The notes below the pieces were generated by a model that did no database searches, had not been told where the DNA came from, and was given only the letters and a program-made list of their open reading frames with translations. A stretch of DNA of 64,000 nucleotides, taken from assembly GCA_963971425.1 (NCBI GenBank), contig OZ020519.1, positions 14,276,028 through 14,340,027 of the forward strand. Reading direction: 5' to 3'. This document shows, one piece after another, positions 252 through 45,437 of this stretch (within the stretch, counting starts at the first letter, position 1; each line of letters starts with the position of its first letter). A program made the position numbers and the translations under genes. Origin of the DNA: Bryoerythrophyllum caledonicum. Lineage: Eukaryota; Streptophyta; Bryopsida; Pottiales; Pottiaceae.

Positions 252-3200
252 ATAAATGTGTAGCCATTATTGCCTCTTTGGAGCCATCTCAGTAGAGGTT
301 CTAGAAAAATAATAAAGAGGTATGGGCTCAATGTATCTCCTTGGATGGTACCACGTTGAATGGGAATAGGGCGTGTGTTACCAAAGAATTCTCCAGTGTA
401 TGTAGTGGTAGATTGGGAGTATATATTACCAACCAATGTGACTGCGTCTTCCGGGTACCCAAGATCACTCATAATGGCTAGCAATCGAGGGTGGTCAATG
501 GAACCAAATGCGTTTTTGAAGTCAATGTAGAGTATGTAAATGTCTTTATTAGTGAATTTTGCATCCTCAAGAGCTGCTATGAGGGTTTGAAGTTGTCGGG
601 TGGTACTTCTCTCGGCTCTAAACCCTTCCTGGCTTTCGTGTAGTATTTGGTGTTTTTCCCCATAGGCCGATAATATTGATGTTAGTGTGCTAGTATATAA
701 CTTGTAAATGGTGTTAGCTAAGGCAATAGGTCGGTGGTTAGGTAGCACGGATGGGTTGCCTTTTTTTTATAATAAGATTGTTAGACTTGTTTTCCAAGAT
801 GCGGGAATGGATTTTTGTTTGTAACAGTGAAGGAAGAATAGTGATAGGAGGTCATGGAATCTTGGAGGCATGTTTTTTAGAATTGAGTTAGGTATATGGT
901 CCGGTCCGGGGGCTTTGTTGGTTCCCAAATTTTTTAGGCACATGTCGTATGTGTCTCTATTATAATATGTGTGGAGGGGTATTGTCGGTTCGCCTCTTTT
1001 ATCAATGGTAAATCCGTCCAAATCATGCCACGGATATTGTCTAACTCCGCACGTGCATGTAGGTGTATGTTGTGGTTGGAGGTGGCATGGGGGGGTGGAT
1101 GGTCTATTATTTATGGATTGTTGAAGATGTATTTCGTTTGCGATGTCATCGGGGCTTGTTAGAATGTTATTGTTTTGATCCAAAATATAGTCTAGTGGCA
1201 GGTTTGTGTTATTTTTAAAGACTTTTCTATTAATATTTTTTGGGCTAGTTTCGTATAATTGACGGTATTTAGAAATGGATTTTTTGATACATTCTCTTGC
1301 ATATTTTGTAGTAATTTTCCGAGCATCTTTGTTGGTAGTTTTTGCAATGATTGCAATGTCTTTTAGCCACTCTTCGTGAGGGGTATTGGGTGGTGGTATT
1401 TGTGGGATTTGAGGATGACGTAGGTTTTGTAGTTCGGAGAGTATGGGGTGGGTTTGCCAGTTTTGGATAGTTTTGGCAATGTAAATTGTTTTACGAATAG
1501 TGTGGTATGTGACAAGATGTTGTTTCCACTTTTTGGCTAGTTTTCTCGGAAGATACCCTCCTTGTCTTGAGGTTTGAGGTGTGAGTTGTGGGATCGGGGG
1601 CGCTTTACAGGTTTTTTCTAATATAGTAGACATTTCATTAATAATTTTGTCAAGAGTTGTGCAGGCTTCTTGCCATTGAATGTGTGTGAGGTATTGGTGG
1701 TTAGAAAGAATACCTGTAAGGGAGTCTATTTGTAGTGAGTTCTTTTCAAAGAATATTGTATTAAAGTTATCAAGGTTTTCTTTAGGGATAGGGTTTAGTA
1801 TTTTAATATCGTTCAAGTTGATGGTTGTGGGAGGTCTACTTATAAGGGTGTTGTGAGGTATATTGAGTTGGATTGGAAAGTGGTCCGAGTTTAAATTGGT
1901 TGTGGTATTGGTGTTAGATGTATATCGGGTATGGTTAGGTGTTTTAATGTAAAATCCATCAATTAGGCTAGTGTGTGTGTAGTTAAGTCCACCTTGACGA
2001 GAGTATTGTTTATCGGTTGGGATTAGATGTAATTCTAGGTCAGCCGTATAATTATGCCATTGATAATCTATGTCAAGTGGGGGGGTAACAACCTCTCCGT
2101 TTTGTCGTCCAATAAGGGCGATATCTCGATTAAAGTCTCCGCAGAGTATTATTGTATGGTTGGTGTGTGTATTTATTTGTGAGGTGATGGAGTGTTGGAT
2201 CTCCGGAATAAGCCTAGAGTCTTCTATGTGCGAGGGTATGTATAAATGGAGAATGAGCCATGGTTGGAGGGGACGATTAGTAATTTCAATAATTTCAAGA
2301 TATGGTGATATATTAGCCGGGGTAGGGATTTTAGTAATATTCCCGAGGAAGGCATATGATTGGTGTATGAGCATGAGTAGACCACCTCTTGCCGGTGTGT
2401 ATGGCCTCCGTTGTTGAATACACCGTGTGAGGGAATGAGTGTTATTAAATATGAGTTTGTAATCGGGAAATATTTTTTGGATGTATTTTGTGGATTTAGT
2501 AGCGGTTATTTTAGTTTCTTGTATGGCAATTATGGCGGGTGGAATGTTGGTGTGGGTGGTTAGATTTTGGATGCATGGTAAAGTAGTGTTTAACGTTGAG
2601 GCGTTCCATGTAGTTATGTATGTGTTTCTGTTATCTATATTGTCGTGATTACAAAGTGGGGGGGATATGTAGGCGGGTGTCGGGGTGGGGTGCGTGTAAG
2701 CTTGAATTGGTTCAAAGCATCTAAGAGCTTCTAGGATAAGATTGTGCGGGAAGTAGGGAAATTTGAGTTGTAGTTCATCGGGGGAAGGGGGTGAGGTTTG
2801 GCTATGGATAAAGTTATATAAGTCATTATGTAGAGAGGTTTTGTGTTCAACAAGGTGTTGATTTACTTCTAGGAATTTAGTGTATGAGTGGGTTGTATTT
2901 ATATGTCTTTCAGGTGGATTATGTAGAGAGGATAGGGTGTTTAGTAGTATATTTGTCCAGTTTGTTGGATTTGTGTTGGTAGGATGTTGGTTGATGATAT
3001 TGTTGCATTCGTCTATTGAGGGGTGGAGGGTGGTAATTATAGCAAATAAGATATGTGTGGATGGGTGGTTGTTTTTGAGGTGTATATAGCCGGAAATGTT
3101 GGGGTAGAGGCTGGAATAGGTTTGGTGAAGAGAGTGATTAATATTTAGGAGTGGCGCAAATGAGGATGCTAGATGTTGATATTCGGGGTGGAGTTTTATA

Positions 3201-3271
3201 ATATTCGGAATGAAATAATTTTTTGATAATCTTTTGTGTGTATTTGGATGGTTGTGGAATACATTTGGCAT
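227..3271 (-). pseudogene. LINE ORF2, copy A: APE endonuclease and partial reverse transcriptase
   Basis: The product would nick target DNA and reverse-transcribe the element RNA. The first 200 or so residues match no domain I recognise. The endonuclease follows, with the expected landmarks: WNAS near residue 218, IQET, CGDFNRDI near 375 and the terminal LNSDH near 465. The reverse transcriptase begins near 785 with NKAPGPD and continues through GFRAERST, the motif A segment DFKNAFGSIDH and the motif B segment RGTIQGDTLSPYLF. A single in-frame TAA at 769-767 sits where copy B has a Tyr codon, and the frame stays open after it. The frame then diverges from copy B just after GYTF and ends at 227, before motif C. 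The ATG at 3271 directly follows the last Pro codon of a 2A peptide. Endonuclease residues look intact, but the copy is dead because of the stop and truncation. Confidence 0.9.
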
Positions 3272-3334
3272 TGGGCCGGGGTTAGTTTCTACATCTCCGC
3301 AAAGTATAATTAATAGTTTGCACTGGATAACGTT
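3272..3334 (-). other. 2A (StopGo) peptide coding motif, copy A
   Basis: The frame immediately upstream of the ORF2 ATG reads KLLIILCGDVETNPGP followed by Met-Pro. This is the complete canonical 2A consensus D-V/I-E-x-N-P-G-P followed by Pro, except that a Met (ATG) stands between the final Pro of the motif and the next Pro. In known 2A sequences the ribosome skips the Gly-Pro bond and releases the upstream product. Upstream the frame runs through a poly-Gln tract, encoded by the CAA repeat, to an in-frame TAA near 3432. No ATG lies in this stretch, so the ribosome must have entered from another frame in the ancestral element, or the link is broken in this copy. Confidence 0.85.
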
Positions 3335-3360
3335 TATGGTTACTAGTGGGCGGAATGTGG

Positions 3361-3362
3361 AG

Positions 3363-3415
<53 letters not shown>

Positions 3416-3418
3416 TCT
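3361..3418 (+). repeat. (TTG)n / (CAA)n microsatellite
   Basis: About 18 perfect TTG units on the + strand. In the LINE sense strand this is CAA, and it encodes poly-Gln in the 2A frame or poly-Asn in the linker frame. An indel here that is not a multiple of 3 would disconnect the linker from the 2A frame. Confidence 0.95.
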
Positions 3419-3447
3419 TGATTGTTAATTTTTAAAATTTGTTTGTT

Positions 3448-3730
3448 AGTATATATATATACTATTTTTTTCTTTTTGCATGGGTCTTTATATATATTTA
3501 TAGTGTATGTTTTAGTATATATATATACTATTTTTTTCTTTTTGCATGGGTCTTTATATATATTTATAGTGTATGTTTTAGTATATATATATACTATTTT
3601 TTTCTTTTTGCATGGGTCTTTATATATATTTATAGTGTATGTTTTAGTATATATATACTATTTTTTTCTTTTTGCATGGGTCTTTATATATATTTATAGT
3701 GTATGTTTTAGTATATATATATACTATGTT
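3448..3730 (+). repeat. 66-bp minisatellite, about 4.3 copies
   Basis: Units begin at 3448, 3514, 3580, 3646 and 3710 (partial). The spacing is 66, 66, 66 and 64. Each contains a self-complementary agtatatatatatact core, a T-run, tgcatgggtc and an AT-rich tail. Full units keep the LINE sense frame open (66 is divisible by 3, and the sense is K/Y/I/T-rich). The 64-bp unit has lost one TA and introduces a stop. Confidence 0.95.
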
Positions 3731-3762
3731 GTTATTTATTGTTGTAGCGTTGTTTAACGCTA

Positions 3763-3960
3763 TTAGTTTGACGTATCCATCTTGCTTTCGATGGCTCGTT
3801 GTTCTCTTTCTGATGCTTGTGTCTCTGCTGCCATGATGGTTGCGATGAGTTGTGACCGAAGAGTTGACATTTCTCCTCTGAGAGATTTGACCGTGTTTGC
3901 TTGCACCATGTCTGCGTATTGCCTTGCTTCTTCAACGATTTCACCTTTCATTGTTTTCAT
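3763..3960 (-). CDS. Small coiled-coil ORF between LINE ORF1 and ORF2, copy A
   Basis: A 65-residue highly charged helix-forming product, rich in Glu, Lys, Arg and Gln. It contains KGEIVEEARQY near the start and RGEMSTLRSQL in the middle. The ATG follows the ORF1 stop directly (TAA then ATG, same frame), so it could be reached by reinitiation or stop readthrough and would then act as a C-terminal coiled-coil tail of ORF1. The same small ORF occurs at the same place in copy B (26243-26007) with the shared blocks EIVEE-RQY and RGEMSTLR, which argues that it is translated. Its function is unknown; multimerisation of the ORF1 protein is a reasonable guess from analogy with LINE ORF1 coiled coils. 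Confidence 0.65.
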   Translation of the reverse strand: MKTMKGEIVEEARQYADMVQANTVKSLRGEMSTLRSQLIATIMAAETQASEREQRAIESKMDTSN

Positions 3961-5349
3961 TTATTTCCGCAGTTGTTGGAGGGTGATTCCATTTCCTTTG
4001 TTTGGTCCGTTCTCCATAGCAATTACTACATTTGCTACGGCCGAGTTGACATCCGTGAAGCCAAGTCTTGTTAGTTCCTCCGAACTAGGCTTGTTGCTAC
4101 CATCGAGGCTCTTGGGATGAGGGGTAAACATGATATATTTGCCATGTAGTTTTTTACTTTGTTTGACATATTTTTTACATACGGCCACATTTAGACACTC
4201 AATATTGCAAGTCCCAACATGACAGCCATGCTCGAGTTTGAAGAATGTATCTACCACATTCTCCTCCCCAAGTATGGATTTTAACCCTTCCACAAGCTCT
4301 TTCTCATTTTTTGTTTTGTTAAGGTTTTTTGCTATGAGGATAAGGCAATTCTTTTTTGCAATTTCATCCTCGTCCATTTTCCGGGTTGCAAAAATGGGGA
4401 CAAAGATCTCATTATAGAATGAGACCTTGTAGTCCTTAATTTTGGCAGCTTGTTCCGGGGAAGGAGTTTTGAGCCATGCAAATTCAGAATTGGCTTTCTT
4501 TTCCACTCCAATGATTTCAAAATCGTAAGCCCTTGCAAAGCCATCTTTCACAATCTCTGCATGTAGGTCGTATGATTCTATGTTCACAAGATTTTGACCA
4601 GTTATTTTAACTAATAAAAGATGTGAGAAGGCCAAGGAATCGTATGACTTGCATACTTTTCCTTGGTGTGGAAGTCCTTCGTTCAGGGTGAGAATGAAGG
4701 GTTTTAGCCCTTGCAACAACTCTTTCCCATCAATGTTAGGGTTTTTTAGGTGCAATTTGACCACACCAGTCCAATTATCGGATTGGTGGTGGCAAAAGAC
4801 CGCTATCGGTTCCTCAATACCCGTCCCTAGGGGGATCTCCATGTTTTTCAGTCTAATTTTCACCATTTCTATCACAACGTGCTTTGACCATATTTGGCTC
4901 CCCAATTCAAAGTGGATGGATATTTGATAGTCCAAGGCAAAGCCATTTTCATCCACCTCAACTTCACTTGGAAGTTGAGTGAGGTTGAAGTGGTTGCCAT
5001 CCTTTCCATCCACTCTTTTGGTGGGCCATTCCTCTTGGAGGACAAATGGAAATGAGGGCATAGCCTCCAGACTTTCAGCTGCATAACTTCCTCTCAATCC
5101 ATTCTTCTCTAGTTCTTCTACTGTAGAACTAGCCACTTTTTTACCTCCATTTTTTTTTGCTATTATGTTCATAGTTTGAAAACCTAGCCAGTATTTGGTA
5201 GAAGGCAAACTTGTTGCCTTCACCTTTTTCTGGGTGGTGCTTACAATTGCTAATGTGTTTTGAGTTACATTCACATGGCATGCATTTTCCTCATGCACAT
5301 CAACAAAAAGTCTTTTGGAGAGTGTAGTGGTGGATTTTGGTTGAGACAT
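3961..5349 (-). CDS. LINE ORF1 protein, copy A (RRM-like)
   Basis: A 462-residue product starting at MSQPKS, chosen because copy B starts at the corresponding position; the frame is open for another 81 codons upstream. The protein is well conserved with copy B over its full length, with shared blocks WFGF/WLGF, HFNLTQLPSEVEVDE, KSYDSLAF and WVKTPSP. The part near residues 310-400 has an RRM pattern: LILIAKNLNK as an RNP2-like strand, a helix, and HVGTCNIECLN as an RNP1-like strand. By family it should be the RNA-binding chaperone component of the retrotransposition RNP. No CCHC knuckles are seen. Its frame is intact to the TAA at 3963-3961, which abuts the ATG of the small ORF. Confidence 0.8.
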   Translation of the reverse strand: MSQPKSTTTLSKRLFVDVHEENACHVNVTQNTLAIVSTTQKKVKATSLPSTKYWLGFQTMNIIAKKNGGKKVASSTVEELEKNGLRGSYAAESLEAMPSFPFVLQEEWPTKRVDGKDGNHFNLTQLPSEVEVDENGFALDYQISIHFELGSQIWSKHVVIEMVKIRLKNMEIPLGTGIEEPIAVFCHHQSDNWTGVVKLHLKNPNIDGKELLQGLKPFILTLNEGLPHQGKVCKSYDSLAFSHLLLVKITGQNLVNIESYDLHAEIVKDGFARAYDFEIIGVEKKANSEFAWLKTPSPEQAAKIKDYKVSFYNEIFVPIFATRKMDEDEIAKKNCLILIAKNLNKTKNEKELVEGLKSILGEENVVDTFFKLEHGCHVGTCNIECLNVAVCKKYVKQSKKLHGKYIMFTPHPKSLDGSNKPSSEELTRLGFTDVNSAVANVVIAMENGPNKGNGITLQQLRK

Positions 5350-18970: not shown

Positions 18971-20095
18971 TTATAGTGGTGGGGGGGGGGTGGCGTTTAG
19001 TTGGAGGCCTCGAACGCAGAGTATGTCAGGCCTAAATCGAGCGTTACAATGGCATCTAAGGAGGAGGCATGTACATGGAAGGAGCCATGGGGGGACGGTG
19101 TTTTCCGGTGGGTTATTGTTGTAGGTGCCTGCGTTCATGAGGATGTAGCAATGGGATTTATTAGAGGAAATTAACATTTTTCGAATTTCCCATACAGCTT
19201 TATTATGGCGTTTTGTAATTAGGGCGTGGATGTGGGGGTGGTGACATTTCAACAAGAGATGATGCCATGTGTCAGGATCAGTGGAGTTACATATGGAGCA
19301 CGTTATATTGGGAAATCTGATATGTCCAAAGAATAGTTGTTTTCGAGCGTTTCCCATATATTGTCCAGTTTGGAATTTAATGAGACTTGTAGTTTGGGCG
19401 TCAGTGATGGTTGAATCGTTCCAAAAGTCAGTTGAGAGTTTTGTATCGATGTCATTGTTATTAAGCCATTTTTCTATGTTGGGAAATTGTGTTGCTATGA
19501 CTACTAAATTGTGACTCCTATCATATTTTAGTAAGTATTTTTCTAAAAATCGTATTGGTCCATTGTCTGGAGAATTTGTCATGTTAGGCCATTGGTCTTG
19601 GTGATAATAATATGGGGTGGGATGTGCAGATTCATGTGGTTTGGAGGCATGTTTATAAGGTATGTTAGCGCCCTCTTTAGCCAATTTGTCGGCTTGTTCA
19701 TTGCCTATTATATTGGAGTGGGCTCTTACTTTAAGTAATATGGTGGGGTGTGTTCTTTTGAGGAGGAGATGAATTATGGAAGTTAAGAGGGTTCGGTCCG
19801 GATGGTTATTATGAGATGTTGGATGTTTTATGTGGGTATTTAGAAGATAAAGGATATTAAGGCAATCTGTGAAGATATATGCTGGCTCATTTGGGAATTG
19901 TTTTAGAATAATTTTTAAAGTTTTATGAAGAGCCATCATTTCTGCTCTTAGTATGTTTTGTAGGCCAGGTAATCGTTTGGAAATGTTTAAGTTTTTTGTA
20001 TAGTTGTGGATACCATATCCGGCAGCTCCGTTTTGCTCTATGTCAGGACTAGTTTCAATCTGTTTTGTGAATGAGCCATCCGTATAGTAACAATA
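18971..20095 (-). pseudogene. LINE ORF2 copy B: RNase H domain and zinc-finger-like tail
   Basis: The frame directly follows the methyltransferase-like segment after one TAA (20098-20096). It contains the four acidic residues and His of a type I RNase H: YTDGSF, RAEMMAL, FTDCLN and, near 19700, HSNIIGNEQAD. This domain would remove RNA from the cDNA hybrid. A C-x2-C-x9-H-x4-C pattern (CSICN...WHHLLLKC) follows near residue 213 of this segment, similar to the zinc-binding motifs after the RNase H of some LINE and plant RT proteins. The domain order EN-RT-RNH places the element with I-type LINEs and not with the common plant L1 without RNase H. Confidence 0.85.
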
Positions 20096-21442
20096 TTATG
20101 GGTTGAATTTCAGAGGAGGGTTGGTGTTGTATTGTGGGTGAGGTGGTAGAGGATGAATATGATTACAAGGGTAGGTGGGATAAGGAAGGGTTGACCAAAG
20201 TTTACTCTGATTGATTTTGGGTTGGATTGGAGTTGGTGGGGCCGGATTAGTGTAGATATAGTCAATGCCTAGTGATTGTGTTGTGGTCTGGATTATAGCT
20301 AGTTGTTCTGTATTACATATGATATTTTTGTTATGATGTATACATAAGATTTGTAAACTAGATGGTTCGATGTGTTTTTTGTTAGATGTATGGTTTAGGG
20401 TGGGTTTGGTATATGTGATGGTATCTGCATCAAAGAGTGTAATGATGTGTGTATCAATAAATGGTCCTATATATGGTGTAGAATTTTTGTACCAATTTAT
20501 GTCTGGCGCAATTATAAAAGTTATATTGTTTGGATGCTGTTGTGCAGCTAATCTGGCCCAGTGTATAGCTTGTTGAACATCTTGATTGGTATGCGGATGT
20601 GCAAGTCCTTTACCATGCCATTTGGAGTCAAATGCTTTCCCTAGTGAACCGAAGACTTTATCACGGTCAAAAGGTGAAAAAAATTTGTTTAGAGTTGTAG
20701 GGCAAGTGATTGGTGATGAGAAATATGTGTGTTGTATGTCAAATATCTGTATTAGAGAATGAAGGATTTCAGTAGGTAAAGTATATTGCGCCGAGCGATG
20801 GGGGATTTTGTTAAAGAGTTGAGGTTTATATCTTTGATATAGCCAGATTATTTTAGTTTCAAAGGGTTGTGTACCTGGAGTGAGGTCAAGAATGTTGTCT
20901 TTAGATTGTTGGTATTGTGTCCATAACCATTTCAATCGTGTGGTGGGTATTGTGGTAAGGTGATGTCCATTTTGTTCATAAAGTTGAGTTTTTTCGTTTT
21001 GGACTATTATTGTGGGTGTGGAGATGTGAATATCTTTTTCTGGATTACAGTCTGTAGTAATAATTGAGAGGAGTGGGATGTTTGTTGGTGGGTGGACGTA
21101 TCGGGTGTTAGTGGTTTGTATTTGGGGGTGGTGGACTGCTAATATATTGGCATAGTGGTTGTATTGTTGTTGTTGGAAGTATTGGATAAGGAGTGAGATG
21201 TTGTGGTTAATCACGATTGTGTTATTCCATGGAAATAGATGGCACTGTGGTTGCCATTTTATATATTGGATGTTATTATTGAGTATCCATTGACATAGAA
21301 ATGTTTCGTCTTTTTTTACAATGATATGTTTATCGGTATATTTCCGAGTGCGATGGTTGATTATTTTAAAAATAGGATATGTGGAAGGGTTTTTAATTAT
21401 CTTCGAGGGAGGACGTATAAGTGATGTGTTACTATGGATCAA
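20096..21442 (-). pseudogene. LINE ORF2 copy B: PCIF1-like adenine methyltransferase-like segment
   Basis: A 448-codon open stretch between reverse transcriptase and RNase H, in frame with the latter. Residues about 197-350 follow the layout of the PCIF1 family (cap-adenosine N6-methyltransferases). They start with LYQRY, then LPTEILHSL, an aromatic-Ser-Ser-Pro block (TYFSSPITC), FFSPFDRDKVFGSLGKAFD, a Gly-rich turn, a helix rich in Ala, then TFIIAPDINW. The catalytic NPPF tetrad expected after the Gly turn reads AHPHT here (20602-20588), so methyl transfer is doubtful. The first 190 residues match nothing I know. It is absent from copy A because that copy is truncated. The family assignment rests on remembered motif order alone; another Rossmann methyltransferase remains possible. 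Confidence 0.5.
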
Positions 21443-22269: not shown

Positions 22270-24113
22270 TTATTTGATTAATTTGGTAGTGGTGGTATGT
22301 ATTTGTATTTTCCATTTTAAAGAAGCTACAAGCTGAATTCCAAGGTAGGGGTATGGTTCATTTTGATGTAAAATGGGTATGGTTTGTCCTCGAAAATTGA
22401 TATTTGGTGCTTGTAGACGGGTTTTGAATGTGGTTGGGTTCATTTTTAATTTGTTAGGGCTACCTGTAAGTGCGCACTTTGATACTCCTAGATCCATTCC
22501 GGTCCATTGACAAAATCTGTCAATTTTATCAAGTTGAATTTGTATGGATTGAAGTTGGGCCGTTAGAACCGCTAGGTCATTAGCATATGCCGCAGAGTTA
22601 ATGGTGGTGTTAGATGTTTGGAAAGTGTAGCCAGTATTACCACGTTGCAACCATCTTAGTAATGGTTCGAGGAAAGTAATGAAAAGGTATGGACTCAGTG
22701 TATCTCCTTGTATAGTTCCTCGTTGAATGGGAATTGGACGGGTTTGTCCAAAGTGTTCGCCTATATATGTAGTAGTGGATTCGGAGTATATATTGCCAAT
22801 AAGAGCAATTGAATCTAAAGGGAATCCTAAATCATGCATGATGGCAAGTAATCTGGCATGGTCAATAGATCCAAAAGCATTTTTGAAATCTGTATATAGA
22901 ATGTAAATGTCTTGATTTGTAAATTTGGCATCTTCTAGGGCAGAAATAATAGTTCGTAGCTGTCTGGTTGTTCCTCTTTCTGCTCTAAAACCCTCCTGAC
23001 TGTCGTGAAGAATACGGTGTTTTTCACCGTAAGTAGATAAGATGGATGTTAACGTACTCGTAAAGAGTTTATATGTTGTATTTGTTAGTACAATTGGTCG
23101 GTGGTTGGGGAGATAAGAAGGATCACCTTTTTTATATAGCAGAATTGTTAGACTAGTTTTCCATGAGGGTGGGATTTGTTTTTGTTTGTAGCAATGTTTG
23201 AAAAAAGTTAATAATAGAGTATGAAAGCAGGGGGGGAGGTTTTTGAGAATATCATTAGAGATTTTGTCTGGGCCAGGAGCTTTGTTGTTACCGAGATTTT
23301 TTAAGCATAACTCATAAAGTTCTTGGTCAAAGTATTTGTAGAGGGGAGTTTGTTGTTCTCCATGTTCTTCTAATACAAAGCCATCTAAATCATGCCAGGG
23401 ATATTGTCTCACGCTGCATGTACAAGTGGATGGATGTTGTAGTTGATAATAACAAGTTGGGATAGTAGGATAGTTGTTTATAGTTTGTTGTAAATATATC
23501 TCGTTTGCAATTTCTTCTGGGGTTGTGATGAGATTGTTGTATCTATCAGTTATACAATTTAGTGGACAGGAGATGTTATCTTTGAATACTCTTTTGTTTA
23601 TCTTTTTTGGGCTTGTTTCGTATAGTTTTTGGTATTTAGATATTGCTTTTTTGACACAATCCCTAGAGTAGTTAGTGGTGATTTTTCTGGCTAGTTGATT
23701 TGCGTTTTTTGCAATTGTTGCTAAATTTTGAAGCCAATCTGCATGTGGTATAGAATTTGCAGGAGGTGGTGGTATGTGAGCATGAGGATGGTTTTGGATT
23801 ATATTTATGATAGGGTGGTTTCTCTAGTTATGATTGTTATTAACTATGTAGATTGTTTTTCTTATAATGTGATATGTAGAGAGATGTTTTTTCCATTGTC
23901 TAGATAGTTTTCGAGGGAGGAAGCCACCTTGTTTAGCAGTTCGGTCAGTGAGTTGTGGTAAAGGAGTTGTAGAGCATGTTTTTTCAAGAGTATTAGACAA
24001 GTTAAAGATAAGTGTATCTAAAGTTGTACATGCAGAGTGCCATTGTGTCTGTGATAAATGAGGGTTAATGTCTAGTATGTTAATTAGGTTTTCAATAATG
24101 TGTGAGTTTTCTT
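22270..24113 (-). pseudogene. LINE ORF2 copy B: reverse transcriptase
   Basis: The frame holds the full fingers-palm of a LINE reverse transcriptase from about 23340: NKAPGPDKIS, SWKTSLTILLYKKGD, NHRPIVL, GFRAERGTT, motif A DFKNAFGSIDH, motif B RGTIQGDTLSPYLF, and motif C AYANDLAV (22587-22576). Motif C reads YAND where LINEs have a [F/Y]xDD box, so one catalytic Asp is Asn (AAT for GAT). Upstream, 24113-23412 encodes the linker seen in copy A (FLPRKLSRQWKKHL, TSPKKINKRVF) with a TAG near 23825 where copy A has Trp. A frameshift near 24114 separates this segment from the endonuclease. Confidence 0.9.
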
Positions 24114-25631
24114 CTATGAATTGAGATTGAAATAATGAAATATTAAGTTCAGGATAGGATTAAGAATTCTTTTAGGATATGTTTTTATTAAGGTAGGTGG
24201 TCTAGATATAAGTGTGTTTGGTGGTAAGTGTAGTTGAATGGGGTAGTGGTCTGAATTAAGGTTTAGGGTGGTGTCAGTAGTTGATGTCATGTTTTGTTGG
24301 ATAGACGTGTTTACGTAGAATCCGTCAATGAGGCTAGTGGTAGAGTAATTTAGGCCACCTTGTCTTGAATAAGATGTGTTTGTGGGAATGTAGGTGAGAT
24401 TGATATTTGTGGTGAATAATTGCCATTGTATATCTTCAGTTGTTGGATTGGTGTGTATGTTGTCTATTGTACGACCAATGAGGGCAATATCTCTATTAAA
24501 GTCACCGCATAGTTGGTGTATATGGTTTTGGTGGCTGTTAATGGTGTTTGAAATAGTTTCTTTGATAGAGTTAATGAGTCCGAGGTCTTCGGAGTGTGTA
24601 GGCATGTATATGTTGAGGATTAACCAAGGTTGTAGTGGTTGATTTGAGATTCGTATTATTTGAAGGTATGGTGAAATTGAGGCTGGTGTTGGGATCTTTG
24701 AGATGTTACCAGGAAATACATATTTATTATGTATCATGGTGAGAAGGCCTCCTCTAGCGGGAGTATATGGAATTCTACGCTGGATACACCTTGTAAGTGT
24801 ATGTGTATTATTAAAAATGAGCTTATAGTTTGGAAACAAGTTTTGAATATATTTAGTAGATTTCTTGGTGGTTAGTTTTGTTTCTTGGATATTTATAATA
24901 GCAGGGGTGATTAAGGTATTAAGAAGCATATTTTGGATGTTTGGGAGGGAAGTGTTGAGGTGAGAAGTATTCCAGGTAATGATATAGGTTTGTGGACTAT
25001 CAGTAAGTGTGGTTTGTGGTGTGGGTGTGATAGGAGGGAGAGGAGGGGGGTGTGAATATTCTCGTATAGGTTCAAAAATTCGGTAAGTTTCAACTAATAG
25101 TTGTTCAGGTAAATAAGGAAATTTACCCTTAAGGTGTTCAAGTGTAGGAGTTGGGGTTTCAGTGTGGAGAAAGTCATATAATTCTTTATGGATTGAGTGT
25201 TTATTGGTGAGGATGTGATTGTAGTCGTTTTGAAAGTTTGTATAAGGATGTGGTATGTGAATATGTCTCTCAGGGGGATTGTCGAGTGAGGTTAATTTTT
25301 GCTATAGTGTTGTTGTCCAATTTAATGTGGATGTTATATTATTTAAATTTGAGAGGATATTATTGCATTTTATTGTTGATGGATGTATGGTGATGACGAT
25401 AGCGTATAAAATATAAAGAGCTATGTATTGGTTTAAGCTATTTATATAGTTGTGTAGATAGGGAAGTTGACGGCTTTGTTCATCATATTGATCATGGTAT
25501 GGGTTATGTAAAGGTGCAAAAGATTTTGCTAGGTGTTGATATTCAAGGTGTAATTTAATGATACTAGGAATAAAATATGTTCTTGCTCGTCGTTTATGTA
25601 GTGGTGGATGTGCTTTGAGGAGATTAGGCAT
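24114..25631 (-). pseudogene. LINE ORF2 copy B: N-terminal region and APE endonuclease
   Basis: The ATG at 25631 directly follows the 2A motif. The N-terminal part matches copy A (YFIPSIIKLH-EYQHLA-SFAPL). A TAG at 25304-25302 interrupts it, and the frame then stays open to 24114. The endonuclease has WNTS, IQETKLT, CGDFNRDI and LNSDHYPIQL, so the catalytic Asn, Glu, Asp and His positions are retained. The copy is non-functional because of the stop and a frameshift at its end. Confidence 0.9.
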
Positions 25632-25694
25632 TGGACCGGGGTTTTGTTCAATGTCTCCACATCTATGAAGGAGGGTGGATGTGTCAAATGTATG
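25632..25694 (-). other. 2A (StopGo) peptide coding motif, copy B
   Basis: Immediately before the ORF2 ATG the frame reads LLHRCGDIEQNPGP then Met-Pro. It fits D-V/I-E-x-N-P-G-P and differs from copy A in upstream residues, in Val/Ile and in the x residue, so the core was kept while the sequence around it drifted. The frame is open for about 20 codons further upstream and then meets TAA. It shares reading frame with the small coiled-coil ORF (26243-26007) but not with the linker frame in between. Confidence 0.85.
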
Positions 25695-26006: not shown

Positions 26007-26243
26007 TTAGTTTGTCATGTCCATTTGTTTCTCCATGATGGACAAACTACGATGAGATGTCTCTCCTTCCTTGGATGCCTCGACTTCTCGTTCAAACGCC
26101 TCCGCTTCATGATTCTCAAGAAGTTGGATGAGGTTCATCCGGAGTGTGCTCATCTCTCCTCGCACTGTTCGGGCGGATATCGTTTGGACGGTGTCCACAT
26201 ATTGGCGTGTCTCCTCAACAATTTCTTGCTTCATTGCAACCAT
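26007..26243 (-). CDS. Small coiled-coil ORF, LINE copy B
   Basis: A 78-residue charged helix-forming product from ATG 26243 (MVAMKQEIVEE), aligned with the copy A start. Upstream in this frame there is only a GTG and then a stop. It shares EIVEE-RQY, TVRGEMSTLR and a Met-Asp-Thr/Met-Thr-Ser/Thr-Asn terminus with the copy A ORF at 3960-3763. The ORF1 stop lies 42 bases upstream and out of frame, whereas in copy A it abuts in frame. Confidence 0.6.
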   Translation of the reverse strand: MVAMKQEIVEETRQYVDTVQTISARTVRGEMSTLRMNLIQLLENHEAEAFEREVEASKEGETSHRSLSIMEKQMDMTN

Positions 26244-26284
26244 CTCTTGTCGAACTTCTACAATGGTATGGTCGGTGCCGCGCT

Positions 26285-27703
26285 TCACTTCACTTCACTT
26301 TGAGACATTCGTTGTAATTCTTCTCTTGAAAATCCAACCTTGGGAGCGTTTTCGAGTGCAATCACTGCGTTGGCTACTGCGGAATTTACATCGGTGAAGC
26401 CCCATTTGGTGACGAGTTCAATGGATGGTGCACTAGTTCCATTCAAACTCTAAGGGTGGGGAGTAAACTCAACATATTTGCCTAAAAATTTTCCGCTAGT
26501 GTTAACATGTTTCTTGTAAATCGCCGGATTAAGACAATGAATGTTGCAAATTCCAACATGTTTGCCGTGCTCCATCTTGAAGAACACATCCTTCACATTC
26601 TCCTTGCCAAAATACGCCTCAAGACTTTTTTCCAGTTCTTCGACGTTTTTTATCTTGTTTAAATTTTTTGCTATAAGAAGTAGTACGTTCTTTTTAGCCT
26701 TGTCTTCGTCACTCATTTTTCCTTTGGTTGCAAAGTATGGAGTAAAGATTTCATGATTGAGTGCAACCTTGTGTTCTTTGATTTTTTGAGCTTGTTTGGG
26801 GGAAGGAGTTTTTACCCATGCGAATTCCAAATCTACTCTCTTTTGTACATCGGTAATTTCATAGTCAAATCCCCGTGCAAAACCCTCACGGACTATTTCT
26901 TCGTGGAGGTTATACCATTGTTGGTTAACAAGGTTAGGTCCTGAGATTCTGACAGAAAGAAGATTTGCAAAGGCCAAGGAATCATAACTCTTGCAAACCT
27001 TCCGACGGTTCGGAATTCCTTCCGCAAGAGTTAAGATAAATGGCCGAATGCCTCGAAGGAGACCTACTCCATCTACTTCGGGATTTTTGAGGTGAATTTT
27101 AATAGTACCACTCCATGTATTTGTTTTGTGGTAGCACATGATAGCTAAAGCTTCACCCAGAATTTCCCCAAGTTCAATTCCCATGTCATTTAATCTCTCT
27201 CTCACCATCTCTTGGACGACATCTTTAGTCCATACTTCTATGTCTCTTAGTTGGAAAGATATCGCAATATGGTAATCAAGTGCAAAGTCATCTTCATCTA
27301 CTTCAACTTCACTTGGAAGTTGCGTTAGGTTAAAATGATGACCTTCTTTCCCATCCATTCTTTTAGATGGCCATTCTACTTGAGAGACATACGGAAAAGA
27401 AGGAAGAGCCTCTACCCTCTCTTTTGCCTCTTTCTCAGATAATCCCATCCCCACAAGTTCATTGACGGTGTGACTTGGTTCTTTTGGACTCTCACTTCTC
27501 ATAGCTATAGTGTTTAAAGTGTTAAATCCGAACCAATATGGAGGTCGGGCCAAACGAGTTGCCAGAACCTTCTTTTGGCTTGGGGACGACTTAACATCCG
27601 CATTGGACCTCTTTTGTAAAGAAACCGTGTCGCAAATACTCTCTTCTACAACTTCCATGAATTCAATTACCCGAGAGGTTGAGGCGGCATGTGCATGAGA
27701 CAT
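26285..27703 (-). pseudogene. LINE ORF1, copy B (RRM-like, one premature TAG)
   Basis: Starts at ATG 27703 (MSHAHAAS). The protein aligns with copy A ORF1 throughout, including HFNLTQLPSEVEVDE, KSYDSLAF, WVKTPSPKQA and the RRM-like pair LLIAKNLNK and HVGICNIHCLN. A TAG at 26452-26450 replaces a Lys codon of copy A directly after FTPHP. The frame then continues through GFTDVNSAVAN to the natural TGA at 26287-26285, so only about 54 C-terminal codons are lost. By family it should be the RNA-binding protein of the retrotransposition particle. Confidence 0.85.
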
Positions 27704-41099: not shown

Positions 41100-42011
41100 A
41101 TGGCTCTTCCACTAAAATCACCTAGGGAAGCACGTGTGCAACCGCTCCTGTTTGACGCCCTAGAACCTGATGGGAGCAATTATCTTGAGTGGAGTAACGA
41201 TGCGAAGGCTTTCTTATGTGCGGAAGAACTGGACTATGCACTAGATTGCGAGACCATCGAAAAGCTATTGACACCGCGCCGATGGCAAGCCCTCCTCATC
41301 TTACGCCATCACATCGACGTCTCACTGCGGCAATAATACTTACAGACGAACAACCCGGCGGATTTATGGCGGCAGCTCCGAGATCGCTTTCACCACAAAC
41401 AGACGATGTTCTTACCGCAAGCCCGCAACGACTGGATTAACCTGCGCGTCCTTGACTTCGCCGATCTCCTTGCCTTCAACGCCGAACTGCACCGCATCAC
41501 CGCCCAACTTCGACTATGTGGCGATCGCATTTCAGATAAGGAACTCATAGACAAAACCCTATCTACTTTTCCTCCAACTACCGCTATCTTAGCTGAGTAG
41601 TACCGGAACATGCGATTTGAGAAACATTCCGAATTGATGTCGTACTTACTCCTAGCTGAAAAGCAACAACGATTATTGCTAAAGAATGCAGATGCTAGCA
41701 CGGGAGGTACACATCGCCGAGACATCCACCCGAACGTCACAACGGGATCGGAAACGACCACCACGACGAAATTTCTCACGTGAAGCCAACAAACCTCCCG
41801 GTAAGCGTCACTCATCCCATAGACGTGAGCCTACTCTAGTGGTCGACAAACATGTCATAGATGCGGTAGATCAGGTCATTACAAAAAGGAATGTCGGGCG
41901 TCACAATACCTCGCTCAGATTTATCAAGATCTTCAATCATTAAAGAAAGGTTCACGCGAGACGGACACCCTAGACGCTCCGTCATTTCTTGATGTAGAAC
42001 CCGAAAATTTT
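41100..42011 (+). pseudogene. copia gag region
   Basis: Starts MALPLKSPRE at ATG 41100. It contains SNYLEWSNDAKAFL and LWRQLRDRFHHKQTMFLPQARNDWINL, characteristic of the copia UBN2-type gag. In-frame TAA (41334-41336) and TAG (41598-41600) interrupt the same frame, and a frameshift follows near 41690. A CCHC nucleic-acid-binding knuckle, CHRCGRSGHYKKEC, lies at 41853-41894. Confidence 0.85.
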
Positions 42012-43250
42012 ATGGTGGATAATCGTAAGGGCGTGTTTCCTGCAGACATCGCACTGCTCGACAGTACGTCCACCCATACGATTTTACGCAATGCAAAATA
42101 TTTTGATTTCTCAGGCTGCGCAGCCACCTGGCAAACGTGTGACCTAGTCACCCTTGCCGAAAGTCGGAGTTTTAGATTCCGAGAGGGCCAGGCGTCTTTG
42201 ATACTACTTGGAGGACTCCCCCTCCTGTGCCAAAAGGCAATGTATGCACCGACAACACCTCGTAGCCTGATCAGCTGCCGAGAATTGCGTGCAAATGGGA
42301 TCCACGTCTCCACTGCGGTGGAGAATGCTGAAGAGGTTCTGGCGCTAAGGCAAGGCTGTAGTTTCCTTGCCACAACGAAAGGAGGAGCCAACGGCCTATA
42401 TGAGATTGCGATAAGACCTCAAAAGGGACCCGCAATAAGCCACTTCTCCACACCTCGTGGAGTTGCTAAAGAGACCCAAAAGTTCCCACATGGAAGTGAT
42501 ATTCCTGGGGCTAAAGGCCTACAAGGTAGCAATCTTTTAGGCTTTGCTTTTCTAGTCTCCTCCTCGGCCAAGGTCGGAATATGGCATCAGCGCATGGGGC
42601 ATCCGGGCACCACGATGTTCCGCCGCATGCTACCATTGCTTGCAGGTCACAATCTATGTCCGGGTGACGCTGACAAGGTGGGAAGCTGCGCCGCCTGCGC
42701 TCAAGGGAAGCTGGTCAAGCAACCTTCACGGTGGAAACTTCCAACCGAGCTTCCCCAAGTGCTTTAGCGTCTTCAAGGTGATGTATGCGGTCCTATAAAC
42801 CCACCCTCAGGTCCTTTTTGCTATTTCCTTGTTTTGATAGATGCTTCCGGTAGACACTCAGAAGTATTCCTTCTCACAACCCGGAACATGGTGTTTCCCA
42901 AACTTCTAGCCATGCTCATTAAGTTCCGAATCCACTTTCCTGATCACCTAGTGAAAACTCTACGCATGGATAACGCTCAGGAATTTAGATCCCATGCATT
43001 TGAAGATTTTTGCGTAGCTTCAGGAATTACCCTTGCCTATTCCATTCCTTATGAGCACGCTCAGAACGGACTTGCTGAGGCCTACATTAAGAAGATCCAG
43101 CTGATTACTCGGCTTTTGCTTATTCGCGCAAAACAACCAACTTCTATGTGGAGCCATGGAGTCCTTCATGCCGCTACTCTTCTTAGAATAAGACTTACCC
43201 TACTAAATTCTCATACCTCGCTAGAATTACTATCCGGACAGGTACCTTAA
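42012..43250 (+). pseudogene. copia protease and integrase
   Basis: The protease-like segment has ALLDSTSTHTIL, with the usual D-S/T-G triad altered to D-S-T. It is followed by the pre-integrase block GIWHQRMGHPG and a CAACAQGK zinc-binding end. After a TAG (42765-42767) the integrase core continues with GDVCGPI, LRMDNAQEF and NGLAEAYIKK, which contain the D, D and E catalytic positions. The frame ends at 43250. Confidence 0.9.
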
Positions 43251-43779
43251 CGTATCTCACCTAAGAACCTTTGGATGTCAAGTTTGAGTACCTATAGCTG
43301 AACCTTGGAGAATGACTATTAGCACCCATCGGCACGAAGGAATATATGTAGGATTTGATTCCCCCAATATCATCTGATATATTTCTCCCTCTACAGGAAC
43401 CCTATTACGTGCTAGATTTGCAAATTATAAATTGTAGAAGATGTCTTTCCCTCCATGATCATAGAAAATCCATCTCCCAAACTAGAATTCTGGGCCCCAG
43501 AAACATTCACACTAAACCCTGTCCCCAGAACTGTCCTATGTGAGACCGAAGTGAAGAAGCTCGTTCACCTCTAGAACCTAGCCGATAGACTCTCAAATGG
43601 CTTCAATGCCGGACATTGTAATACCCGGAATCCCCTACCCGGAACAGGTTTCCAACCAATCAGTATCCTTCCAATTAAACGGAAATCTGATCACGAGTCT
43701 TCATCCTCGAATGCTATCCGATCCCAACCCCAAAATTTTCTATCTGACGTAAATTCCATTAGTTCAAATGAGGTCGAAG

Positions 43780-45437
43780 CTTTTGTTTCTTGGCTAACCC
43801 TTTCAGATAATGATCCTCAAACCCTAAAACATGCAAAAGCTAGTCCTGAATGGCCTGAATGGTCAAAAGCTTTAGAGGCAGAGTACAATTCTCTTAGAAA
43901 ACGCAAAATATTTGGTCCTTTAGCCACAGATCTCTCTAACTAACCGATTGGATTCAAACTGATTTTTACCCGCAAGAGAGATGAGAAAGGAAACATTCTG
44001 CGTTACAAAGTACGTTTAGTAGCCCAGGGCTTTAACCAACGACCCGATATCGACTTCAAATTTACCTACTCACCAGTCATGGATAACACTTCCTTTAGAT
44101 ACCTACTTAGCTTTGTTGTCCACTTATCCCTAGAAACACAACTTTTAGATGTGGTGACCACATACCTCTACGGACCCTTGGACGCTGACATCTATATCAA
44201 ACCCCCTCCTGACTTCATTCCTTTGACCAAGCCGGGGACACCAGCGACTATTACAGGAAAATTCTCCGGGCTTAAACTACAGCGCGCTTTGTATGGACTC
44301 AAACAAGCCGGACGAATGTGGTATCAACACTTACGGGATTTCCTATTGAACCACGATTTCCAACACGACCCCATTCTCCCCTGTATCTTCACCTTCAAGG
44401 ATAGCCAAGGTTTTGTAATCATAGCAGTTTACGTAGATGACCTCAATCTTGTGGAGACTGTCCACGCATGCACATATGCCGTGACCTTACTCACGGGCCA
44501 ATTCGAGATGAAGCTCCTTGGCCAAGCAACCTTCTGCCTTGGCCTCTAGATTGCCCATCTAGCCGATGGCAGTATTCTCCTTCACCAAACATGCTACACT
44601 CAGCGCCTCCTCAAGACTTTTAATATGGACCAGGCCAATCCCCTTGCGGCGCCAATGATCGGACGAAGCAAGAGAGCTGAAGATCTATACCGTCCTTACG
44701 AGGAGGAGGAAGACGAGGAGTTAACGGACAAAACCAAGTACCTCGCAGTGGTCGGAGCCTTACTTTATCTTTCCACTTACACAAGACCAGATATATCATT
44801 TGCTACAAGTGTGTTGGCGAGACACAGTCAAAAACCGACAGCAGGACACTGGAACGGGGTGAAACATCTATTCAGATACTTACGAGGGACAAAAGACTTT
44901 GGATTTCGTTATACGAAGGGCGGAACACTTGAGATGGTTGGATATGCCGATTCAAGATTCAAGATTGATGAAGTATCCGGTAAATCTCAGACAAGGTATA
45001 TCTTTCTCAAGAACAATGCTCCAATTTCATGGAAATCTGTCAAACAGACAGTAACGGCAACATCCACTAACCATGCGGAGTTGATTGCACTCCACGAAGC
45101 TGTACGAGAGGTGGTATGGCTGCGAACGATGGACAAGATTTTGATGGAGCAGTGCGGCCTAGCCTCAAGTAGCGGACCGACCACCATATTCGAAGACAAC
45201 GCTGCGTGTATCGCACAGGTCACCGCGGGATTCATCAAGGCCGACCGTAGCAAGCATATCAGCCTACAAATCTTTGGATTCACACAAGACCTCATCGAAT
45301 CATGCCAAATAGATGTCAAGAAAATCGAATCAGCACACAACATATCTGACATGCTTACCAAGGCGCTACTTGCCTACAAGCACAAGGAACTGATGAAGAA
45401 AGCGGGAATGCGACCCCTACATGATTTCATTTCTTGA
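43780..45437 (+). pseudogene. copia reverse transcriptase and RNase H
   Basis: RT starts near 43790 (EWPEWSKALEAEY), crosses TAA (43941-43943) and continues through KRDEKGNILRYKVRLVAQGF, LKLQRALYGLKQAGRMW and the catalytic YVDD (44430-44441). TAG (44547-44549) separates it from the RNase H part, which carries GALLYLSTYTRPDISFATS, VGYADSRF, TNHAELIAL, EDNAACI and the C-terminal DMLTKAL. All four RNase H acidic positions are present. Confidence 0.9.

Follow-up and report, generated by a model that had tools for sequence, protein, structure and literature searches.

How does a two-ORF LINE of a moss obtain its enzyme as a separate protein when the codons directly in front of ORF2 spell a 2A (StopGo) peptide? 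The question is raised by two copies of an element, A and B, on the minus strand of a 64,000-nucleotide stretch of the Bryoerythrophyllum caledonicum assembly (contig OZ020519.1, positions 14,276,028 to 14,340,027). This whole stretch is the window, and all features of both copies given below are on its minus strand.

The 2A core in the window and in the assembly

In copy A, positions 3334–3272 encode NVIQCKLLIILCGDVETNPGP in the window translation, followed by the ATG (M) of MPNVFHN.... The core DVETNPGP (3272–3295) is in frame with ORF2, and the upstream part NVIQCKLLIILCG (3296–3334), the portion compared with known motif classes, is L/I-rich and ends in CG. CGDVETNPGP had been placed directly before the ORF2 ATG by an initial reading of the letters alone (the sequence-only reading), and this placement is borne out. 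Copy B carries, on translation, the core DIEQNPGP at 25632–25655.

ORF1 of copy A (MSQPKST... to MDTSN; 3763–5349) is interrupted by an in-frame TAA at 3963–3961. Its ORF2 contains an APE-type endonuclease domain (1871–2611; PF14529 and PF03372, both below their gathering scores). An in-frame stop separates this domain from a reverse transcriptase domain (272–745; PF00078, E 9.7e-21), beyond which the element leaves the window. Copy B spans about 27.7–19.0 kb of the window, with an ORF1 (MSHAHAAS... to MDMTN; 26007–27703) broken by stops and a frame change, the C-terminal part of the endonuclease (24237–24623; PF14529, below the gathering score), a reverse transcriptase (22333–23124; PF00078, E 6.4e-26), a PCIF1-like domain (20507–20881; PF12237, E 1.7e-11), and an RNase H (19667–20089; PF00075, E 6e-15). 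The PF14529 scores are 26.5 bits (E 6.3e-6) in copy A and 26.4 bits (E 6.8e-6) in copy B, against a cut-off of 27.4. The best PDB matches of the copy B reverse transcriptase are R2 (6.5e-29) and then LINE-1 ORF2 (6.2e-16), and the ORF2 domain order EN-RT-PCIF1-like-RNH is taken from this copy.

The 437-Mb assembly holds 26 exact DVExNPGP sites, versus 2 for the reversed pattern, and 1,688 exact DIExNPGP sites, versus 0, giving 1,714 exact cores in total; a chance match is ruled out by these controls. The residues after each of the 26 DVExNPGP sites are (M/I)(P/A)N, which matches the beginning of the LINE ORF2 (24 MPN, 1 MAN, 1 IPN), and some of these copies, such as L016 and L033, end shortly past the core. 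The x of DIExNPGP is T, K, Q, A, or I among the 100 of the 1,688 sites that were listed. The core of copy A is genuine, but its DVE is a minority variant next to the commoner DIE, and the copy is decayed. A stop 43 codons ahead of the core closes its 2A frame, and no in-frame ATG lies in that interval, so that copy A cannot reach its own 2A in frame. Between its ORF1 and 2A lie a (CAA)n array that reads as poly-Gln in the 2A frame (3363–3426) and a 66-bp tandem array of 4.3 units (3446–3727) that contains 2A-frame stop codons; each unit of the latter has the AT palindrome AGTATATATATATACT. Copy A alone would mislead because of this closed frame, the stops in the array, and the premature stop in ORF1; in copy B, too, the 2A frame is not open from the coding sequence upstream.

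Conservation was assessed in two sets of copies, which are related by descent, so that no count given here represents independent events. For the motif-blind set, the query was the ORF2 N-terminus beginning at the M after NPGP; 150 of 3,131 first-look candidates were scored, and the upstream sequence of 40 of these was fetched and read. For the second set, the query included the 2A, 150 of 3,746 first-look candidates were scored, and 20 were fetched; a third search scored 150 of 834 first-look candidates, of which 40 were fetched. Intact D(V/I)ExNPGP was found in 32 of the 40 motif-blind copies and in 16 of the 20 others, all best-matching copies. The resulting 48 of 60, or 80%, is an upper figure and the genome-wide fraction is lower, because the sampled copies come from the best-scoring 150 of 3,131–3,746 candidates. 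The consensus (D/G/C/N)(V/I)ExNPGP describes copies A and B and the same 48 copies.

Across the 60 copies, each of the eight core positions shows its majority residue at a frequency of 0.93–0.98, x is T in 58, and the core codons vary synonymously (GAC/GAT; CCA/C/G/T; GGA/C/G). The majority residue reaches only 0.22–0.63 at 17–24 codons upstream of the M, and K at −16 (0.95), L at −11 (0.93), and G at −9 (0.93) are held. The 12 core losses comprise nine single changes, two double changes, and one frame-shifted copy (L058). The M after NPGP is kept in 58 of 60, although the query of the 40-copy set began at that M. Conservation of the motif among family members, which had been named at the outset as support, is borne out; the observation is right, and stronger than was first stated.

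An open frame between ORF1 and the 2A

In six copies that are better preserved, the 2A frame can be followed backwards for 108–470 codons without a stop, into the end of ORF1, which it meets in the −1 frame. The linkers of L036, L139, and L140, measured from a putative slip site at the ORF1 end to the 2A, are 1,410, 1,281, and 1,140 nt long, are in phase, and contain no stops, versus 16–32 stops in their other two frames; L028, L029, and L032 have neither a stop nor an ATG over the 224, 291, and 108 codons of the same interval. Among the 150 scored matches to the query that included the 2A, 25 have a 2A frame open for at least 2,300 codons, one of them with a stop inside the match. The M after NPGP had been taken as the start of ORF2; the M is present, but in the better-preserved copies the ORF2 frame continues upstream without stops, and a start at this M only is disfavoured by the stop-free linkers.

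The same phase is seen, less uniformly, in larger samples. Of 39 ORF1 ends that were fetched, 28 have a −1 frame without a stop up to the limit of the stretch (36–41 codons) and 11 have one that closes within it; the +1 frame is open in 9. Forty-four ORF1–2A pairs, chosen by eye from the search lists, are by their coordinates in −1 phase in 25 cases and in the other two phases in 10 and 9, which against an expectation of one third would give P 0.001 if the copies were independent; being related, they are not. Copy B is also out of −1 phase, in addition to these 19 pairs.

In each of 17 copies, the stretch between the slip site and whichever of an ATG, a stop, or the 2A comes first was shuffled 300 times; 18 had been given, and L027, whose frame closes after 9 codons, was left out for its length. 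No shuffle was stop-free for nine copies (L036, L140, L142, L028, L029, L032, L034, L026, and L023), and the stop-free fraction was 0.003 for L035 and L018, where the figures of L035, L018, L034, and L026 measure length only, these stretches having been cut at their first stop. Six copies gave fractions of 0.06–0.32 (L139, copy B, L010, L013, L024, and L011), the value of 0.097 for L139 not being significant. The linker of L035 contains a stop, and the frame of L018, L034, and L026 closes before an ATG or the 2A is reached.

The linker is variable in length and rich in Asn, Lys, Thr, and His, often with CAA-encoded poly-Gln/Asn. Differences by codon position, counted only in well-aligned, in-phase columns, number 50/203, 54/207, and 60/207 (0.25, 0.26, and 0.29) between the linkers of L139 and L140 (617 of 1,132 aligned columns) and 65/273, 74/269, and 72/268 (0.24, 0.28, and 0.27) between those of L035 and L036 (810 of 999), versus 30/302, 11/302, and 108/302 (0.10, 0.04, and 0.36) in the L139–L140 ORF1 control. 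No sign of amino-acid selection on the linker was seen in either pair, both of which lack codon-position bias, and no clear third-position excess was found in ten group II linker pairs. Where tested, the linker thus appears to be kept open while its protein sequence is not kept, and because the substitutions are without codon-position bias, its translation is argued by openness alone. The passage of ribosomes would be the simplest explanation of a stop-free and otherwise neutral linker. Removal of an intron between ORF1 and the 2A is disfavoured, since a linker that is spliced out would not need to stay open. With a 2A placed past so variable a linker, the N-terminus of ORF2 would always be the same.

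Very long CAA/AAC arrays precede the 2A in L018, L028, L029, L035, and L036 and read as poly-Asn, poly-Gln, or poly-Thr depending on the frame. The linkers of L035, L036, and L141 contain degenerate repeats of the 2A/ORF2 start, such as GDMETNPRPTPN in L141, as if linkers grew by recombination between copies.

An alternative route into this frame has to be weighed here, in which the 2A is active and ribosomes come into the linker-2A-ORF2 frame at a linker AUG or a non-AUG codon, through internal entry or reinitiation, with no frameshift involved. In-frame ATGs do lie in the linkers of L036, L139, L140, and L142, at 90, 56, 160, and 105 codons past the slip site, and would suit such entry; the frame is open well ahead of them, however (0 of 300 shuffles for L036, L140, and L142; not significant for L139), and L028, L029, and L032 are without any ATG before the 2A. 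The ORF1 end bears on this alternative further.

The ORF1 end and the proposed route to ORF2

The putative −1 slip site of copy A, GTCAAAC (3766–3772), adjoins the ORF1 stop TAA (3765–3763), and that of copy B, GACAAAC (26010–26016), likewise adjoins its TAA (26009–26007). AAAC is found in 57 of 58 recognised ORF1 ends, the patterns for recognition having been written after the sequences were viewed and containing AAC themselves; the exception, L106, has TAAC and a −1-frame stop. Of 59 ends given, 58 were counted, L103 being without a site as its match ends before the ORF1 end. The commonest heptamers are GTTAAAC (16), GTCAAAC (16), GACAAAC (11), and GCCAAAC (7). No canonical X XXY YYZ heptamer was found in the 58 sites: only the A-site half (A AAC) fits, and the P-site half does not re-pair.

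ORF1 proteins end, by subfamily, in MDTSN, MDMTN, PDSLN, PPNM, or SNVD before the stop, and their identity to copy B in the main aligned segments is 53–58% in clade I and 30–35% in clade II. In the ORF1s examined, AAC makes up 0.33–0.73 of the Asn codons (about half) and A makes up 0.17–0.36 of third bases (about 0.3). Because clade II ORF1s are so divergent, and because neither AAC nor A is fixed elsewhere, the near-fixation of A AAC across subfamilies suggests nucleotide selection; as the subfamilies share ancestry, no exact probability can be attached to it. A −1-frame stop lies 3–7 codons before AAAC in 28 of 57 ORF1 ends, which would limit slippage to a short run of codons. Past the site, clade II copies have one or two more codons before the stop of the 0 frame, so that the shift would not need an immediate stop.

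Downstream of the slip site, at about 10–21 nt, GAC..ACAACG (clade I) or GACCAAAGAC (clade II) is conserved in the 57 aligned copies. A fold shared downstream was not found among the 23 copies folded, in a search that covered structures other than pseudoknots; a strong hairpin occurs only in L018 (z −4.9) and L021 (z −3.9). The conserved GAC..ACAACG or GACCAAAGAC is a possible stimulatory element without a common fold. Excerpts of PMC9426525 describe a protein-bound downstream element that stimulates frameshifting in PRRSV, and a similar element is a possibility here. BYDV, in which according to the same excerpts a stop directly past the slippery site matters, offers a further parallel. An AT-rich hairpin akin to the palindrome of the copy A array was also seen about 30–40 nt after the slip site in many folded copies.

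In 52 of 57 ORF1 ends, the interval between 6 codons ahead of the site and 12 codons past it contains no ORF2-frame AUG, which leaves a SART1-like stop–start without a nearby AUG in these ends. The five with an ORF2-frame ATG within 12 codons after the site are L104 (C3:13030258-13030438, minus), where the ATG overlaps the ORF1 stop; L101, where it lies 5 nt after the ORF1 stop begins; and L096, L110, and L011, where it lies 20–29 nt on. Reinitiation is conceivable in copies such as L104, as an exception and not the rule. These five ends, like the lack of both a canonical heptamer and a general stimulatory structure, speak for entry at an AUG or by some other route than slippage; the 52 ends without such an AUG and the near-invariant AAAC speak against it, and together with the open frames ahead of the linker ATGs they make it unlikely, though it is the alternative that survives best.

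Arrival at the 2A by a −1 frameshift off ORF1 is the probable route. Most ribosomes would terminate at the ORF1 stop, and some would slip by −1 at the conserved NNA AAC before it, with AAC re-pairing on AAA. The slipped ribosomes would then read the stop-free, otherwise unconstrained linker up to the L-rich 2A, where the Gly–Pro bond would be skipped; the ORF1-linker-2A product would be released, and a separate ORF2 protein (EN-RT-PCIF1-like-RNH) would begin with Pro. From the motif, the frames, and the linkers, we infer slipping, skipping, and this order of events, and we put the probability that the LINE family combines a −1 frameshift off ORF1, a throw-away linker, and 2A skipping that frees ORF2 at roughly 0.6. 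The sequence-only reading held that the ORF products are separated by ribosome skipping and not by reinitiation. The conserved core and the L-rich run upstream of the endonuclease domain favour that claim; its start at the M fares less well, and a frameshift would be needed too, so that it appears to describe half of the mechanism that the sequences suggest.

Likely activity of the 2A, known systems, and wider setting

The hexapeptides before the core in the 60 copies are LIILCG (14), LLLLGG (10), LLLLSG (7), LILLSG (5), and ILLLSG (4), plus variants. LIILCG, LLLLSG, LILLSG, and ILLLSG fit an L-rich hexapeptide ending in (A/S/C)G before D, and LLLLGG, which ends in GG, is a near match only to that class. 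A hydrophobic Leu/Ile run as in active 2As had been claimed for copy A, and the likeness holds for LLLLSG, LLLLGG, and LIILCG: in excerpts of PMC12846837, the L-rich motif 6 (an LLLLSG-like class) shows activity in reticulocyte lysate, with D at p12 accompanying G at p11. In the better-preserved elements, the 2A is very likely translated and able to skip.

Two further explanations would dispense with skipping. In one, the 2A-like sequence is an untranslated relic and ORF2 is begun by reinitiation at the M that follows NPGP, as the M in 58 of 60 copies and the closed, ATG-free 2A frame upstream in copy A might suggest; the residues of the core are conserved across subfamilies while its codons drift synonymously, several linkers lack stops in the 2A frame, which a relic would not need, and a C from the Pro codon stands at −3 of this AUG, a weak context, all of which makes this explanation very improbable. 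Equally doubtful is a peptide that is translated but does not skip, kept as a hydrophobic signal or a fused ORF2 N-terminus: the L-rich run could serve targeting, and sea-urchin N-terminal 2As double as signal sequences (excerpts of PMC4981915), but the StopGo residues (D, V/I, E, N, P, G, and P) are held in 48 of 60 copies, x varies between subfamilies as in active 2As, and 2As are active in plant cells (excerpts of PMC4981915 and PMC12846837).

The combination of slippage and skipping can be set beside several known systems. As had been stated at the outset for trypanosomes and marine animals, such retrotransposons exist: 2A-bearing non-LTR elements occur in trypanosomes, sea urchin, and other species (excerpts of PMC4981915 and PMC5972666), among them L1Tc of Trypanosoma cruzi (Heras 2006, via citing papers) and APE-type elements from multicellular organisms, sea urchin being one (Odon 2013, via citing papers). 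The moss family shares with them a D(V/I)ExNPGP in frame in a LINE; as likened by description, it differs in its green-plant host, in its about 1,700 intact cores in one genome, and in the way to its 2A, which would lead over a −1 overlap with ORF1 and then a long linker without stops. SART1 and mammalian LINE-1 use termination–reinitiation (excerpts of PMC5972666); they too are two-ORF LINEs with ORF2 from the same RNA, but here an ORF2-frame AUG near the ORF1 stop is mostly absent and linkers are open in the −1 frame. A title cited in PMC8229945 names a dsRNA virus whose genome has both a 2A-like peptide and −1 frameshifting. It is this combination that the LINE resembles. In the virus, the 2A reportedly sits within ORF1 and not in the interval from the frameshift to the polymerase, and the heptamer is said to be canonical; the moss element is a LINE and not a virus, its 2A lies between the putative frameshift and ORF2, and its heptamer is non-canonical.

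Retroviral Gag-Pol combines a −1 frameshift with release by a protease. The proposed scheme is similar in providing ORF1 in excess and the enzymes as a −1 extension; it is unlike Gag-Pol in that release would be by StopGo without a protease, and in the lack of a canonical heptamer. On balance, a Gag-Pol logic without protease, with a non-canonical −1 shift at the ORF1 stop, a sacrificial, arbitrary and rapidly changing linker that need only lack stops, and StopGo, which would begin every enzyme molecule at one fixed proline regardless of the upstream sequence, seems somewhat better than an even bet.

That no 2A was known to be established in a plant EN-RT-RNH LINE had also been stated, and the literature matches listed contain no report of one in a plant LINE or other plant element; a 2026 survey (PMC12846837) gives no evidence of natural StopGo use by plant viruses. 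StopGo is a common tool in plant work. The LINE family, with about 1,700 intact cores, would be an example of it in nature from a plant and would offer a large set of variants ready for assay. If the favoured combination of frameshift and 2A is true, a two-ORF LINE would set the ratio of its ORF1 and ORF2 proteins and still yield a clean enzyme. Questions for the recoding field arise from both the non-canonical slip site and the linker, which is open yet unselected.

Several observations lie beside this argument. The PCIF1-like domain of copy B, located between the reverse transcriptase and the RNase H, matches PDB 6irv with E 0.0026 and reads HPH where PCIF1 has NPP; given the role that we take NPP to have in PCIF1, a different chemistry may perhaps be expected. 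A literature search on PCIF1 in LINEs gave nothing relevant among the matches listed, and no relatives of the element were found in viral contigs. The best-listed matches of the three element searches include none on contigs C5 and C13, which may be small, and are present on the other contigs among C1–C15. Three rbcL loci occur in the assembly, and two were read: L037 carries rbcL and accD, and L038 carries a distinct rbcL type. We take the former to be land-plant-like and moss-like and the latter charophyte-like; two plastid rbcL types in one assembly would possibly reflect a cobiont or contamination. The window also holds eIF3c-like and RBBP5-like exons, and a decayed Copia-type LTR element lies on its plus strand at 41829–45437, with a gag-pre-integrase domain (PF13976), a zinc knuckle just below the cut-off, and more ORFs that resemble integrase and reverse transcriptase by eye.
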